Source of the DNA: Aureimonas altamirensis
Lineage (GTDB): Bacteria; Pseudomonadota; Alphaproteobacteria; Rhizobiales; Rhizobiaceae
NCBI RefSeq assembly: GCF_001463885.1
Contig: NZ_BBWQ01000015.1
Span: 124,001-188,000 of the forward strand
DNA length: 64,000 nucleotides
Direction: 5' to 3'
Shown: positions 15,332-24,358 of the stretch, piece after piece
Numbering within the stretch: the first letter of the stretch is position 1
Layout: every line of letters starts with the position of its first letter
Made by a program: the position numbers and the translations under genes
Notes under the pieces: model-generated
What the model saw: the letters and a program-made list of their open reading frames with translations, nothing else
The model's database searches: none
Told to the model about the DNA's origin: nothing

Positions 15332-16288
15332 TTACGAGCCGAGCTTGGCCTTGACCGCTTCCAGTGCCGGCTCGCCGGAGAAGGTGGTTACGCCCTCAAG
15401 CCATGGGCCAAGCGTGTCCGGATGGGCGGCCAGCCACTCGCGCGCCGCCTGCTCGGGCTCCTTGCTGTCGTCCAGGATGGCGCCCATGATCTCGTTTTCG
15501 AGCGGCAACGTGAACTCCAGGTTCTTCAGGAACTGGCCGAGGTTCGGGCAGGCTTCCACAAGGCCCTTTCGCGTGTTGGTATCCACCGTCGCGCCGCCGA
15601 AATTGGGGCCGAAGACGTCGTCGCCGCCCTCCAGATAGGCGAGCTCGAAATTCGAGTTCATCGGGTGCGGCTCCCAGCCGAGGAAGACGATCGGCTGCTC
15701 GCCCCGCGTCTGGCGCGATACCTGAGACAGCATGCCCTGCTCGGACGATTCCACAAGCTCGAAGCCCGAAAGCCCGAACGTATCCTTCTGGATCATGTCG
15801 AGGATCAGCCGGTTGCCGTCGTTTCCGGGCTCGATGCCGTAGATGCGATTGTTCAACTGCTCGCGGAACTTGGCGATATCGGCAAAGTTTTTCAGGCCGG
15901 CGTCGTACAGATAGCGGGGCACTGCCAGCGTATATTTTGCGCCTTCGAGGTTGGTGCGGATCACCTCGATCTCGCCCTTGTCGCGATAGGGCCCGATATC
16001 GGCTTCCATGGTGGGCATCCAGTTGCCCAGGAAGACATCAATATTGCCGTTGGCAAGCGAGGTGAAGGTGACGGGCAGGGCCAGGATGCTGGTCTGCGGC
16101 TCGTAGCCGAGCCCGTCCAGAACGACCGAGGCGGTGGCCGTCGTGGCGGTGATATCCGTCCAGCCGACATCGGCCAGGCGCACCGTGCGGCAGGAGTCCG
16201 GCTCGGCGGCCAGCGCCGCTGCCGGAATGGCTGCAAGGGCCAGGGCCGCCAGAAGGGCAGGGGTGCGACGACGCGTTCGGAAATCCAT
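15332..16288 (-). CDS. choX: Choline ABC transporter periplasmic binding protein
   Basis: A 318-residue OpuAC-type binding protein with a Sec signal peptide (about residues 1-28, PAAALAAEPDSC). The features DVGWTDITATTATASVVLDGLGY, NIDVFLGNWMPTM and PIVFLGWEPHPMN match ChoX/ProX-type proteins; the Trp residues in GWTD, GNWMP and GWEPH would form the aromatic box for the quaternary amine. It delivers choline to a ChoWV membrane complex, but no choW or choV lies here, so the gene is solitary or uses a distant permease. It is divergent from betI-betB, sharing a 252-base control region with two BetI-like palindromes. Glycine betaine rather than choline as ligand cannot be excluded. Confidence 0.88.
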   Translation of the reverse strand: MDFRTRRRTPALLAALALAAIPAAALAAEPDSCRTVRLADVGWTDITATTATASVVLDGLGYEPQTSILALPVTFTSLANGNIDVFLGNWMPTMEADIGPYRDKGEIEVIRTNLEGAKYTLAVPRYLYDAGLKNFADIAKFREQLNNRIYGIEPGNDGNRLILDMIQKDTFGLSGFELVESSEQGMLSQVSRQTRGEQPIVFLGWEPHPMNSNFELAYLEGGDDVFGPNFGGATVDTNTRKGLVEACPNLGQFLKNLEFTLPLENEIMGAILDDSKEPEQAAREWLAAHPDTLGPWLEGVTTFSGEPALEAVKAKLGS

Positions 16289-16404: not shown

Positions 16405-16420
16405 CTGAACAACCATTCAG
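16405..16420. promoter_or_regulatory. BetI-like operator 1 (choX side)
   Basis: CTGAACAACCATTCAG is an inverted repeat with CTGAA/TTCAG arms. It matches the arm sequence and spacing of the better palindrome at 16490-16507 and resembles known BetI targets built on a TTGAAnnnnnnTTCAA theme. It lies directly upstream of the putative choX -35 element. Confidence 0.55.
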
Positions 16421-16540: not shown

Positions 16541-18649
16541 ATGAGCAGAGCATTGAACGCAGCGCGCTCCGGCGTCGAGGAAGAGCGCCGTCGCCAACTG
16601 ATAGAGGCCACGGTGGACGCGCTGGCGGCCGTCGGGTTTGCTGCCGCGAGCCTGTCGGAGATTGCAGGGCGCGCAGGCTTTGCCCCCAGCCTCGTCTCGC
16701 ATTATTTCGGCGACAAGGACGGCCTGCTCGAGGCGACGTTGCGCCATCTGGCCAACCGCGTGTCCGATGCCGTTTTGATCCGCCTGCGCGATGCCGGCTC
16801 CCCGCGGGAGCGTATCCAGGCCGTCATCGATGCCAATCTTGCGCCGGAAGAGTTCGACCAGCGTACCGGCAGCGTCTGGCTTGCCTTCTGGGGCCAGGTC
16901 CTGCATTCGGCCAAGCTGCGCCGGGTGCAGCGCATCTATCAGCAGCGCATGCTGTCCAATCTGCGTCACGATCTGCGCAAGCTCGTATCCGGCGAGGATG
17001 CCGAGCGTGTGGCGCTGTCCATCGCGGCGGTCATCGACGGCCTGTGGCTCCGCTCCACCCTGTCGCAGACGATGGAAACCGATAGCGAGGCCGCGCGCCG
17101 CATGGCCAGCGACTTCGTCGACCGCGAGATCGCGGCGGCGCGCCCGGCGGCTCCGCAGGCGGAGCTGTCACGGCCGCATATCGGCGAAAGCCTGCCGCTC
17201 GTATCCAGCCATATCGGCGGGCGCTCGGTGCGCTCCGGACGCGGGCGCAGCTTCGCCAACATCAATCCGGCCACCGGCGAGGCCATTGCCGAGGTGGCCA
17301 TTGCCGGCGCGGACGAGGTGGACGCCGCCGTATCCGCTGCCCGCAAGGGCCAGGCCGTATGGGGCGCCATGACGGGGGCCGAGCGCGGCCGCGTGCTGAA
17401 CCGCGCGGTCGCCCTGCTGCGCGAGCGCAATGACGAACTGGCCGAACTGGAGACACTGGATACCGGCAAGCCCGTACAGGAAACGCGCGCCGTCGACATT
17501 GCCTCCGGCGCCGACTGCCTGGAGTATTTTGCCGGGCTGGCCGCCGGCCTCGCCGGCGAGCATGTCGATCTCGGCCCCACGGCCTTCGGTTACACGCGGC
17601 GCGAGCCGCTGGGCATCGTCGCCGGTATCGGCGCGTGGAACTATCCCATGCAGATCGCCTGCTGGAAGGCGGCGCCCGCGCTGGCGGCCGGCAATGCGAT
17701 GATCTTCAAGCCGGCAGAGCTGACGCCCACGACAGCGGTGCGGCTTGCCGAGATCCTCACCGAGGCCGGCTTGCCGGACGGCGTCTTCAACGTGCTGCAG
17801 GGAGACGGGTCGACGGGGCGCCTTCTGACGCGTCATCCGGAGATCGCCAAGATTTCGCTGACGGGCGAGGTCGGCACCGGCAAGAAGGTCATGGCCGATG
17901 CGGCCGCCACGCTGAAGCAGGTCACGCTGGAACTCGGCGGCAAGTCGCCGCTTGTCATCTTCGACGATGCCAGCCTGGACGATGCGGTTTCGGCGGCGAT
18001 GCTGGCCAATTTCTATTCGGCCGGGGAGGTCTGCTCCAACGGAACGCGCGTCTTCGTGCAGGAGGGCGTGCACGCCGAATTCCTGAAGCGCTTGAAAGAG
18101 CGGACGGAGCGGCTGGTGGTCGGCGATCCGCTGGACCCCGCCACGCAGATCGGCGCGCTGATCTCGCACCAGCACATGCAGAAGGTTCTGTCCTACATCG
18201 ATATCGGCCGGCGCGAGGGTGCCCGCGCGGTTGCCGGCGGCAGCCGGGTAACGGAAGGTGCGCTGGCGGCCGGGGCCTTCGTGGCGCCCACGGTTTTCGA
18301 TGCCTGCCGCGACAACATGCGCATCGTGCGGGACGAAATCTTCGGTCCGGTCATGTCGGTGCTTCCGTTCCGCGAAGAGGACGAGGTGGTCGCACGGGCC
18401 AACGACACCGATTTCGGGCTGGCGGCGGGTGTGTTCTCGCGCGATATTGCCCGCGCGCACCGCGTTATCGCGCGGCTCGACGCCGGCACGACGTGGATCA
18501 ACCACTACAATATCACGCCCATCGAACTGCCCTTCGGCGGCGTCAAGCGCTCGGGCCTCGGCCGGGAAAACGGCCGCGCCGCGCTGGATGCGCATACCCG
18601 CGTGAAGAGCGTCTACGTCAATCTCGGTTCGGTCGAGTCGCCCTATTGA
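16541..18649 (+). CDS. betI-betB: BetI-BetB fusion: TetR-type choline repressor joined to betaine aldehyde dehydrogenase
   Basis: One uninterrupted 702-codon frame. Residues 1 to about 195 are BetI: a TetR helix-turn-helix at about 38-66 ([20 protein letters not shown]) and a BetI-type ligand domain ([23 protein letters not shown]). Residues about 216-702 are a complete BetB, which oxidises betaine aldehyde to glycine betaine with NAD(P)+. The catalytic Glu464 (TLELGGKSP) and nucleophile Cys498 ([12 protein letters not shown]) are present, and the length (about 487) equals free BetB. A linker of about 20 residues rich in Ala, Pro and Ser joins them. Between the last BetI helix and BetB there is no stop and no well-placed ATG; the nearest, codon 188, is inside BetI. 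betA follows 10 bases later. The fusion would be a DNA-binding enzyme, reminiscent of PutA. A sequencing error removing a stop is the alternative. Confidence 0.88.
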
Positions 18650-18659
18650 GGACTGCGCC

Positions 18660-20321
18660 ATGGCTGTTGAACATTTCGATTACGTCATCATCGGCGCGGG
18701 CTCTGCGGGCTCGGTGCTGGCGGCGCGGCTGAGCGAAGATCCATCCACGCGCGTTCTGGTGCTGGAGTTCGGCGGTTCGGACCGCTCGGTGCTGATTCAG
18801 ATGCCGAGCGCGCTGTCCATTCCGATGAACATGGACAAGTACAATTGGGGCTACGAGAGCGAGCCCGAGCCCGGCCTGGGCGGGCGCCGGATGAACCTGC
18901 CGCGCGGCAAGGTGCTGGGTGGCTCTTCCTCCATCAACGGCATGGTCTATGTGCGCGGCGCCCCGCAGGATTTCGACCGCTGGCAGGCCGAGGGCGCCGA
19001 TGGCTGGTCCTATGCCGATGTCCTTCCCTATTTCCGCCGGGCGGAAGCGCGGGAAGACGGCGGCGACACCTATCGCGGCGGCGAGGGCGCGTTGCATACC
19101 AGCTACGGCCGCATGGCCAATCCGCTTTACACGTCCTTCGTGGAGGCAGGGCGGCAGGCCGGCTATCCGGTGACGGACGATTACAATGGCGCGCGCTTCG
19201 AGGGGTTCGGGCGCATGGACATGACGGTCCATAATGGCCGCCGCTGGTCCACCGCCAACGCCTATCTGAAGCCGGCGATGTCACGCCCCAACCTGAAGGT
19301 CGAAACCCACGCCTTCGTCGAGCGCATCCTCTTCGAAGGGCGGCGCGCCGTCGGCGTCTCATGGCGGCGCGACGGCACCAGCCACGTGGCGAGGGCCGAC
19401 CGGGAGGTGATCCTGTCGGCCGGGTCGATCAATTCGCCGAAGCTGTTGAAACTGTCGGGCGTCGGCCCGGCGGCCGAGCTTGCCGGCCACGGCATCGAGG
19501 TTGTGGCCGACCGGCCCGGCGTCGGCGAGAACCTGCAGGACCATCTGGAATTCTACTTCCAGATCGCCTCAAGGGAGCCGATCACGCTCTATTCGGCGCA
19601 GGGGCTGGTTGCCAAGGGGCGTATCGGCGCGCAGTGGCTCCTGATGAAGAACGGTCTCGGCGCGACCAACCATTTCGAAAGCTGCGGTTTCATCCGCTCG
19701 CGGCCGGGCGTCGCCTATCCCGATATCCAGTTTCACTTCCTGCCGCTGGCCGTCACCTATGACGGCAAGGGCCTGGCGTCCGAGCACGGGTTCCAGGCGC
19801 ATGTCGGGCCGATGCGGTCCAAATCGCGCGGGGCCGTGCGGCTGGCCTCGGCCGACCCTGCCGCCAAGCCATCGGTCCTGTTCAATTACATGAGCCATCC
19901 GGACGACTGGGTGGAGATGCGAGCCTGTGTGCGGCTGACGCGCGAAATCTTCGCGCAGGCGGCATTCGACCCCTATCGCGGCCGCGAGATTTCGCCCGGC
20001 GCGGATGTCGAGAGCGACGCCGAGATCGATGCTTTCGTGCGGGAGCATGTCGAAAGCGCCTATCATCCATCCTGCAGCAACCGCATGGGCCGCGTGGACG
20101 ACCCGATGGCGGTGGTGGACGAGACGACACGGGTCATCGGCCTGGATGGGCTGCGCATCGTGGATTCGTCCATCATGCCGTCGATCACCACCGGCAATCT
20201 GAACGCGCCGACCATCATGCTGGCCGAAAAGGCTGCCGACCATATACGCGGCGTCCCCATGCTGCCCCGCATGGACGTGGAATACGAGCGCGCGGAAAAC
20301 TGGCAGACGGCGCAGAGGTAG
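18660..20321 (+). CDS. betA: Choline dehydrogenase
   Basis: A 553-residue GMC-family flavoenzyme that oxidises choline to betaine aldehyde and can go on to glycine betaine, passing electrons to the respiratory chain. The N-terminal FAD fold is [20 protein letters not shown] (about residues 9-28). The GMC signature is [21 protein letters not shown] (split over about 80-100). The C-terminal active-site region is [13 protein letters not shown], with the catalytic His near residue 470. Length matches BetA. It starts 10 bases after the betI-betB stop, with a weak GAGGA site, and is certainly in the same operon. Confidence 0.95.
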
Positions 20322-22575: not shown

Positions 22576-23274
22576 ATGAACACGCTCGTCGTCTGCTCTG
22601 GCGGACTCGATTCTGTTTCGCTGGCTTATGTCCTGGCGGAACAGGGTAACCTCGGCGCTATCGTCACCTTCGACTACAACCAGCGGCACCGGCGCGAAAT
22701 CGATTTTGCGCGCCGGGCTGCGGAGCGGCTCGGGAAGCCCTTCCACCTCATCGATATCCAGCCCATCGGCGCCGTGTTGAGCGGTTCCGCCCTGACCGAC
22801 GCCGTGGATGTGCCGGACGGCCATTACGCGGAGGATACGATGAAGGCCACCATCGTACCCAACCGCAATGCCATCATGCTGACCATCGCCTTCGGGCTGG
22901 CCGCCGCCCAGAAAATGGATGCCGTCGCCATCGCCGTTCATGGCGGCGACCATTTCATCTACCCCGATTGCCGGCCCGGTTTCATCGACAACTTTGCCGC
23001 CATGCAGGCCCGGGCGCTTGACGGTTTCGCACAGGTGCGCCTGCTGGCGCCGTTTGTGGAACGGTCGAAGGCGGATATCGTACGCGCCGGTGCAGAGGCC
23101 GGCACGCCCTTCGCGCAGACCTGGTCCTGTTACAAGGGCGGCGACGTTCATTGCGGCCGCTGCGGAACGTGTGTGGAGCGGCGCGAGGCTTTCGACATCG
23201 CGGGGGTGAGCGATCCGACCGTCTACGCCGATGCGGATTTCTGGCGCGACGCCGTCTCCAGGCGGTGCGCCTGA
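22576..23274 (+). CDS. queC: 7-cyano-7-deazaguanine (preQ0) synthase
   Basis: A 232-residue ATP-dependent enzyme converting 7-carboxy-7-deazaguanine to preQ0 in queuosine synthesis. The PP-loop SGGLDS is at residues 8-13. The Zn-binding Cys cluster is near the C-terminus (CYKGGDVHCGRCGTCVER). The start ATG 22576 directly follows the preQ1 riboswitch tail. It overlaps queD by one base (TGATG). Typical length. Confidence 0.96.
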   Translation: MNTLVVCSGGLDSVSLAYVLAEQGNLGAIVTFDYNQRHRREIDFARRAAERLGKPFHLIDIQPIGAVLSGSALTDAVDVPDGHYAEDTMKATIVPNRNAIMLTIAFGLAAAQKMDAVAIAVHGGDHFIYPDCRPGFIDNFAAMQARALDGFAQVRLLAPFVERSKADIVRAGAEAGTPFAQTWSCYKGGDVHCGRCGTCVERREAFDIAGVSDPTVYADADFWRDAVSRRCA

Positions 23275-23642
23275 TGTTCAAAATCACCAAGCGGTTCGAA
23301 TTCTCGGCGTCGCATCGGCTGGCCGGCCTGCCCGAGGACCACCCCTGCACACGGCTGCATGGCCATAATTACATCGTCGAGATCGAGCTTCAGGCGTCGG
23401 AATTGAACGCCTTCGGCTTCGTGCGCGACTATCGCGACCTGTCCGCCTTCAAGCGTTACGTCGACGAAACCTTCGACCATCGGCACATCAACGATGTCCT
23501 GGGGCACGACAGCCCGACCGCCGAAGCGCTGGCCCTGCATTTCTACAATTGGTGCAGCGAGCGCTTTCCCGAGACAAGCGCGGTCCGCGTCAGCGAAACA
23601 CCGAAGACATGGGCCGAATACCGCCCGCTGGCGCGCGCATGA
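23274..23642 (+). CDS. queD: 6-carboxy-5,6,7,8-tetrahydropterin synthase
   Basis: A 122-residue PTPS-family enzyme making 6-carboxytetrahydropterin from dihydroneopterin triphosphate, the first committed queuosine step. Zn ligands His14 (ASHRL), His29 and His31 (LHGHNY), catalytic Cys25 (HPCTRLHG) and the FDHRHIND segment are all present. It overlaps queC and queE by 1 and 4 bases, giving a tight three-gene unit. Alternative PTPS functions are excluded by context. Confidence 0.95.
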
Positions 23643-24358
23643 GTGCCGAGCGCATGATCCGCGTCAGCGAGATTTTCGGGCCGACCATACAGGGCGAAGG
23701 CGCGCTGATCGGCCAGCCGACGGTGTTCGTGCGCAGCGGCGGTTGCGATTATCGCTGCGCTTGGTGCGACACGTTGCACGCGGTGGACAGCGAATACCGG
23801 CATGAGTGGCTGCCGATGACGGCAGAGACCATCTTTGCGCGGATCGTCCAGCTTTCCGGCGGTCGCCCGTTGACCGTCTCCTTGTCCGGGGGCAACCCGG
23901 CGATCCAGCCTTTCGGGCCGCTGATCGCCCTTGGCCGCGCGGCGGGGTACGGCTTCGCACTGGAAACGCAGGGCTCTGTTGCCAAGGACTGGTTCCGGCA
24001 ACTGGATACGCTGGTTCTCAGCCCCAAGCCGCCGTCGAGCGGCATGGCCACCGACTGGTCGGCGTTCGATGCCTGCCTTCATGCGGCGGGCGACGGGCCC
24101 CGCGTGGTCCTGAAGATGGTGGTGTTCGACGATGCCGACTATGCCTATGCGCGCGCCGCGTCCGCGCGCTATCCCCATCTGCCGGTCTTTCTGCAGCCCG
24201 GTAACCCCATAGGCAATGAAGCCGCGGCGGCGGACATCGATGGCCTGATGGCCGCGATGCGTAACCTTGTCGCACGCGTTGTGGAAGATGGCTGGTTTTC
24301 GGCCTGCGTACTGCCGCAACTCCACGTGTTGATGTGGGGAAACCGCAAGGGCGTTTGA
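23639..24358 (+). CDS. queE: 7-carboxy-7-deazaguanine synthase (radical SAM)
   Basis: A 239-residue radical SAM enzyme that rearranges carboxytetrahydropterin to 7-carboxy-7-deazaguanine. The 4Fe-4S motif is Cys36-x3-Cys40-x2-Cys43 in [12 protein letters not shown], followed by the SAM-binding LSGGNPAIQ. The start ATG 23639 overlaps the queD stop. GTP cyclohydrolase (FolE) and QueF are not in the window. Last gene of the riboswitch-controlled unit. Confidence 0.95.

Follow-up and report, generated by a model that had tools for sequence, protein, structure and literature searches.

The window that we analysed, a stretch of 64,000 nucleotides from Aureimonas altamirensis, contains a gene, here called betIB, in which the repressor BetI and the betaine aldehyde dehydrogenase (BADH) BetB are joined in one reading frame (Table 1). 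The frame runs from an ATG, which has a good ribosome site ahead of it, to a TGA, with no stop inside. A preliminary description of this DNA had read the 702 codons as a complete BetI, a linker and a complete BetB, and both Pfam and the two NCBIfam cut-offs bear this out. In addition to the two Pfam domains of the head, of which TetR_C_6 is BetI-type, the product matches Aldedh at residues 234-691, and all three domains were found in 52 of 52 aligned fused members. Scanned alone, the head gave a full-length match to TIGR03384 (residues 9-196) with a score of 215.2, above the curated cut-off of 201.3, while the whole protein gave a full-length match to TIGR01804, the BADH model, over residues 225-689 (678.7 against a cut-off of 668.6). 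The catalytic Cys, Glu and Asn are present; Glu464 (17930-17932) and Cys498 (18032-18034) lie where that description had put them and, together with N367 and E599, are invariant in all 84 distinct fused proteins. The promoter region also holds BetI-type boxes, two of them, in a spacing variant relative to loci with a separate betI.

Judged from these matches, each half of the product is an ordinary member of its family; what is new is that the two are covalently joined, in an old and conserved form, and that the boxes have changed. The head resembles separate BetI (the TetR-family choline-binding bet repressor of TIGR03384) in its HTH consensus, C-terminal residues and TTGA/TCAA half-sites, but it is tethered and mostly associated with single TTGAAY-N4-RTTCAA boxes, whereas separate BetI has its own gene and a 20-bp composite, TTGATTGAACGTTCAATCAA. 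The body is a full enzyme with its catalytic residues kept, as in other BADHs (TIGR01804; PDB 2WME, 6WSA and 3R31), from which it differs by the N-terminal BetI head. Elsewhere in the same genome, the best other BetI-like stretch matched at 31% across residues 9-195 or at 42% across residues 9-72. A literature search, with most subscription journals outside its reach, found no description of a BetI-BetB fusion in titles or abstract openings; the fused genes treated in the accessible part of PMC7824335 are methyltransferases.

Table 1. Features of the betIB locus, in window coordinates
Feature	Coordinates	Strand	Basis or remark
choX, choline ABC transporter substrate-binding protein, divergent	15332..16288	-	TIGR03414 above cut-off
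Distal operator-like box CTGAACAACCATTCAG	16405..16420	+	choX side; two outermost bases differ from TTGAAYNNNNRTTCAA
Proximal operator-like box TTGAATGATCGTTCAA	16491..16506	+	34 bp ahead of start codon; 0 expected in window shuffles
betIB (fused BetI-BetB gene)	16541..18649	+	Open frame, 702 codons + stop; domain matches
BetI head, residues 1-200	16541..17140	+	Pfam TetR_N 20-65, TetR_C_6 88-197; NCBIfam BetI equivalog
Possible internal start ATG, codon 188	17102..17104	+	GAGG at 17087-17090; duplex score
Linker region as scored, residues 198-233	17132..17239	+	pLDDT, pN/pS; end overlaps first residues of BetB match
BetB body, residues 224-702	17210..18646	+	NCBIfam BADH above cut-off; catalytic residues
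betA, choline dehydrogenase	18660..20321	+	10 bp downstream of betIB; TIGR01810 above cut-off

Both boxes sit between the divergent choX and betIB-betA. A choX-like divergent gene was present within 1 kb at 60 of the 80 fused loci with enough upstream DNA, a count that leaves out four of 84 loci with under 900 bases upstream. By eye, the translations of the divergent frames at two loci (L052 and L079; 656 and 600 aa) seem to be fusions of a ChoX-like substrate-binding protein with a ChoW-like permease. At two others (L043 and L046) the divergent gene resembles, again by eye, a flavoprotein of the sarcosine-oxidase type and not a transporter, in which case the box may act on betaine breakdown. 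Further along the window (22576-24358, + strand), three adjoining frames resemble queC, queD and queE of 7-deazaguanine synthesis by eye.

Distribution and history of the fusion

A species-level genome scan confirmed 365 stretches, and the best 80 were retained for counting. BetI and BetB lay in one stop-free frame at 71 of these 80 loci and were separated by a stop at the other nine (L055, L072, L073 and L083-L088). Aldehyde dehydrogenase paralogues (L002-L008, L148-L149) were left out, 14 loci with identical BetB were dropped, and the set of separate betI genes excludes L138, where BetI is on the other strand, and L143, which is fused. Within the genus, 20 of 21 genomes, our own included, carry the fusion, with frames of 701-742 codons; the locus of another A. 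altamirensis genome (L009) is 97% identical to that of the window. The exception (G901, locus L147) has an ordinary BetB, 59% identical, in place of the fusion, and no BetI was found within the stretch around it. In a family sample of 151 genomes at least two had a stop-free full-length match, both from this genus, and none of 13 further matches with long open frames had an in-frame BetI head. Matches spanning BetB alone can mask a divergent head, as in G801. The fusion was found in 3 of 385 genomes of the class, our own included, and in 4 of 398 of the phylum, our own and G801 included; both counts took matches at E up to 1e-200, a limit at which more distant fusions are invisible. Carriers include Aureimonas, Ancylobacter, Methylobrevis, Caulobacterales, Acidisoma, sphingomonads and bins labelled gammaproteobacteria. 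Because the same fusion is common to many related bacteria and recurs in many independent assemblies, including the complete plasmid record of Komagataeibacter saccharivorans, where it is a single 692-residue CDS, we dismiss as practically impossible the concern that a sequencing or assembly error hides a stop or frameshift at the junction.

We compared the fused and separate loci in trees of both halves. In a careful BetB tree of 88 rows, which omits 37 near-duplicates from a quick tree of 125 rows, the 52 fused rows and four BetB-only rows grouped in one clade (support 98/99), whose neighbour was the separate betI-betB of Aquibaculum. The BetI tree (82 rows) likewise placed the 52 fused heads in one clade apart from the 30 others (support 100/99). 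Changes of state numbered six in the quick BetB tree and five in the careful one; L143 was labelled separate in the quick tree, but its frame includes BetI and it was therefore treated as fused in later counts. The quick tree had also set Novosphingobium/Stakelama and Komagataeibacter apart, on long branches beside separate loci, as if the sphingomonads had acquired a fusion independently; we rejected this, since all 52 fused rows fall in one clade of the careful tree and the BetI tree agrees. A single origin of the fusion, with four probable losses of the head afterwards, is therefore the simplest history.

The four BetB-only rows nested in the fused clade are L124 (G102), L130, L141 and L142. 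No BetI-like match better than E 1e-10 was found in three of these four headless genomes, two of which are incomplete (74 and 83%), and a BetI-like protein (39%) lies elsewhere in the fourth. Because four lineages have apparently lost the head and a single Aureimonas genome carries an ordinary BetB instead, the fusion is dispensable. The clade holds alphaproteobacteria, bins labelled gammaproteobacteria and a plasmid, which makes transfer between lineages likely.

The junction and possible internal starts

Between fixed alignment columns, the linker measures 25-56 residues in the 84 distinct fused proteins. In nine groups of related genes, pN/pS was 0.09-0.25 in both domains and 0.40-0.89 in the linker (residues 198-233); the A. 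altamirensis/frigidaquae group, for example, had 0.40 in the linker, compared with 0.11 and 0.10 for the domains. These ratios indicate that both halves are under purifying selection and that the linker is coding but loose, with weak constraint in the group that reaches 0.89. An AlphaFold model built with 52 sequences (mean pLDDT 83, pTM 0.68) showed two folded parts, with pLDDT below 50 at residues 206-215 of the linker as well as at 1-9, 345-352, 656-666 and 673-686, so that the relative placement of the parts in the model is not interpretable. The top 14 matches of a fold search were all BADHs, and none of the PDB structures among the matches listed (best 60, 60 and 50) covered both head and body.

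The preliminary description had dismissed internal initiation at the junction for want of a plausible start with a ribosome site, and this was too strong. When duplexes with the 16S tail were scored, the ATG at codon 188 reached -6.4 kcal/mol, compared with -8.0 for the true start, and a GTG at codon 230 reached -5.5. In Ancylobacter and Acidisoma, an in-frame ATG is kept near the old start of BetB, with scores of about -3 and about -5.4 to -5.7, respectively. Retained ATGs were noted at junctions L022-L031 (all but L025 and L027 at the Ancylobacter-type position 25-32), L078, L080 and L127, and it is conceivable from their sequences that these junctions give two products. The position of these ATGs near the start of a free BetB fits an origin of betIB by loss of the BetI stop, in which case the old BetB start would have been lost later in other lineages.

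The ribosome-site complementarity at codons 188 and 230 and the retained ATGs suggest that a separate BetB could be made in some species. A gene of this kind would yield both full-length BetIB and free BetB, started from ATG 188 in betIB or, in Ancylobacter and Acidisoma, from the old BetB ATG that they keep, and would mix headed and headless subunits. The aligned codon 188 is an ATG in 16 of 84 genes (five Aureimonas, five Caulobacterales and six sphingomonads), but only four close relatives among these (L001, L009, L010 and L089) score -5 or better. Moreover, residues 185-246 contain no ATG in 47 of 84 fused genes and no ATG, GTG or TTG in 10, including Aureimonas L014, L017 and L099; any junction start scoring -5 or better was found in 21 of 84, and by eye the N-terminal stretch of BetB that held the old start is missing in many members labelled gammaproteobacteria. 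We therefore regard dual products as a doubtful explanation of the gene.

Operator-like boxes upstream of fused and separate genes

The proximal box is one of two exact TTGAAYNNNNRTTCAA sites in the 4.19-Mb genome, and the distal box is one of two exact CTGAAYNNNNRTTCAG sites. The exact patterns genome-wide thus comprise the two window sites and single sites on contigs 24 and 11. The contig 24 site was considered as a regulon member and set aside as a chance occurrence; it lies inside a frame that by eye resembles a peptide-transporter binding protein. Exact TTGAAY-N4-RTTCAA was found upstream of 46 of 83 fused genes (one of the 84 loci, L054, has too little upstream DNA) and upstream of none of the 30 separate betI genes. 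When one mismatch was allowed, it was found at 82 of 83 fused genes, where shuffles led us to expect 0.06, and at 20 of 30 separate genes, where most of the matches belonged to a longer palindrome; allowing two mismatches made the pattern unspecific. None of the four headless relatives had a box in the 610 bases ahead of BetB.

The longer palindrome TTGATTGAACGTTCAATCAA consists of two TTGA-N8-TCAA units offset by 4 bp. Scored at 17 of 20 positions or better, it was present at 25 of 30 separate loci and 13 of 83 fused loci. The change from composite to single box is not strict, because Acidisoma, Rhodomicrobium, Faunimonas, Komagataeibacter, one Caulobacterales bin and some Aureimonas keep the composite, and the sequences indicate that it probably came after the fusion. 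QacR binds its operator as a pair of dimers, and by analogy the composite box is perhaps made for a pair of BetI dimers. A box of separate type is also known from an alphaproteobacterium: in a study of two-BetI regulation in Ruegeria pomeroyi (PMC12442346), the published box is ATTGACG*CGTCAAT, which has the spacing of separate loci, and BetI1 and BetI2 are treated separately from betB, unlike in BetIB. None of the words fused, Aureimonas, Ancylobacter and Novosphingobium appears in the main text of that paper.

At least two separated boxes, each with no more than one mismatch, were present at 48 of the 83 fused loci and at none of the 30 separate ones, a comparison confounded by the divergent choX of most fused loci, as neighbours were scored at the fused loci only. 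The window counts here as a one-box locus, as its distal box has two mismatches. At 45 of 46 two-box loci the boxes were 87-189 bp apart; the window's own pair, at 86 bp, is not among the 46. We examined the helical phasing of these distances and obtained mean vector R values of 0.26, 0.10 and 0.48 at periods of 10.0, 10.5 and 11.0, the last with a nominal p of about 0, but the 46 loci are related sequences. When they were merged manually into 22 lineage values, R peaked at 0.41 within the period range 10-11.75, a level that 13% of 2000 random sets also reached. We therefore dropped phasing as evidence for looping. The preliminary description had placed a tetramer over two operators; two boxes are indeed present at the locus, but since their distances are not convincingly phased, the spacing does not support bridging by one tetramer. 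Each box may instead serve one of the two divergent promoters.

A probable repressor tethered to its own enzyme

We consider it likely that betIB encodes a single-chain, autogenous, choline-responsive repressor-enzyme; intact translation, DNA binding, choline as the inducer and the oligomeric state of BetIB are what we infer from the data above. The N-terminal head would dimerise and bind the boxes in the choX-betIB intergenic region, repressing both choline uptake (choX) and choline oxidation (betIB-betA). Choline binding to the head would release it and induce the operon, and every new repressor would bring with it one BetB catalytic unit to complete the conversion of choline to glycine betaine. 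The head would be tethered by a flexible linker to a body with the ordinary BADH fold. Since BADHs generally occur as dimers or tetramers, a BetIB particle would have two or more heads, which could raise the local concentration of heads and bring two boxes together, a last step that the box spacing does not support. Residues W113/F116/W117 and D166/G167/W169/R171 of the C-terminal domain are conserved in separate and fused BetI alike and would form the choline pocket, and sensing of choline by the head is therefore the simpler reading. The DNA-binding head very probably still acts, because boxes are conserved at fused genes and absent in the four headless relatives.

A further comparison is with PutA, whose head is a ribbon-helix-helix (RHH) domain that is not known to have a ligand pocket of its own. 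PutA serves the proline pathway and switches to a membrane-associated enzyme. BetIB, by contrast, bears a TetR head and lacks PRODH; in place of the RHH, PRODH and P5CDH of PutA, its product shows only TetR_N, TetR_C_6 and Aldedh. Trifunctional PutA is described in PMC5293562 as an enzyme of catabolism that carries a DNA-binding domain at its N terminus and acts as an autogenous repressor of its own regulon, a plan that BetIB would share. By analogy BetIB may work like PutA, but it is not one. This shared general plan (PMC5293562), the single origin of the fusion and its retention in many genera speak for a switch of the PutA kind, as the preliminary description had proposed, in which the aldehyde, NAD or the catalytic state of the BetB body would alter DNA binding by the head, beyond choline binding by the head itself. 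However, a poorly predicted linker of such variable length does not favour rigid allostery, and the C-terminal residues of the head show the conservation known from separate BetI. We judge such a switch unlikely.

More speculatively, the fusion may have changed the DNA contact itself, with separate BetI on the 20-bp composite and tethered heads on single units; a BADH tetramer with two head dimers would then bridge both promoters of the choline divergon, its catalytic state tuning the bridge. We regard this as possible but improbable. It would be still harder to accept that repression has been lost and that the protein is a BADH with a passive N-terminal extension. Four relatives do manage without the head, but pN/pS is similarly low in head and enzyme, with somewhat higher values for the head in some groups (Novosphingobium, 0.25 against 0.15), and the contrast in boxes between fused and headless genes also argues against this very improbable view.

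If betIB is a repressor-enzyme as we propose, repressor and enzyme would be made one to one, and induction would also yield more repressor. The K. saccharivorans record, which names its fusion only betB and so hides the regulator half in the name, hints at a gap in annotation. BetIB would represent a natural repressor-enzyme outside the PutA type, in which a ligand-sensing TetR protein sits on the enzyme of its own pathway and has been kept in many genera since one origin. The set of loci contains natural experiments, namely fused, headless and separate forms, with or without an internal ATG and with composite or simple boxes, and these make the value of repressor-enzyme fusions testable.
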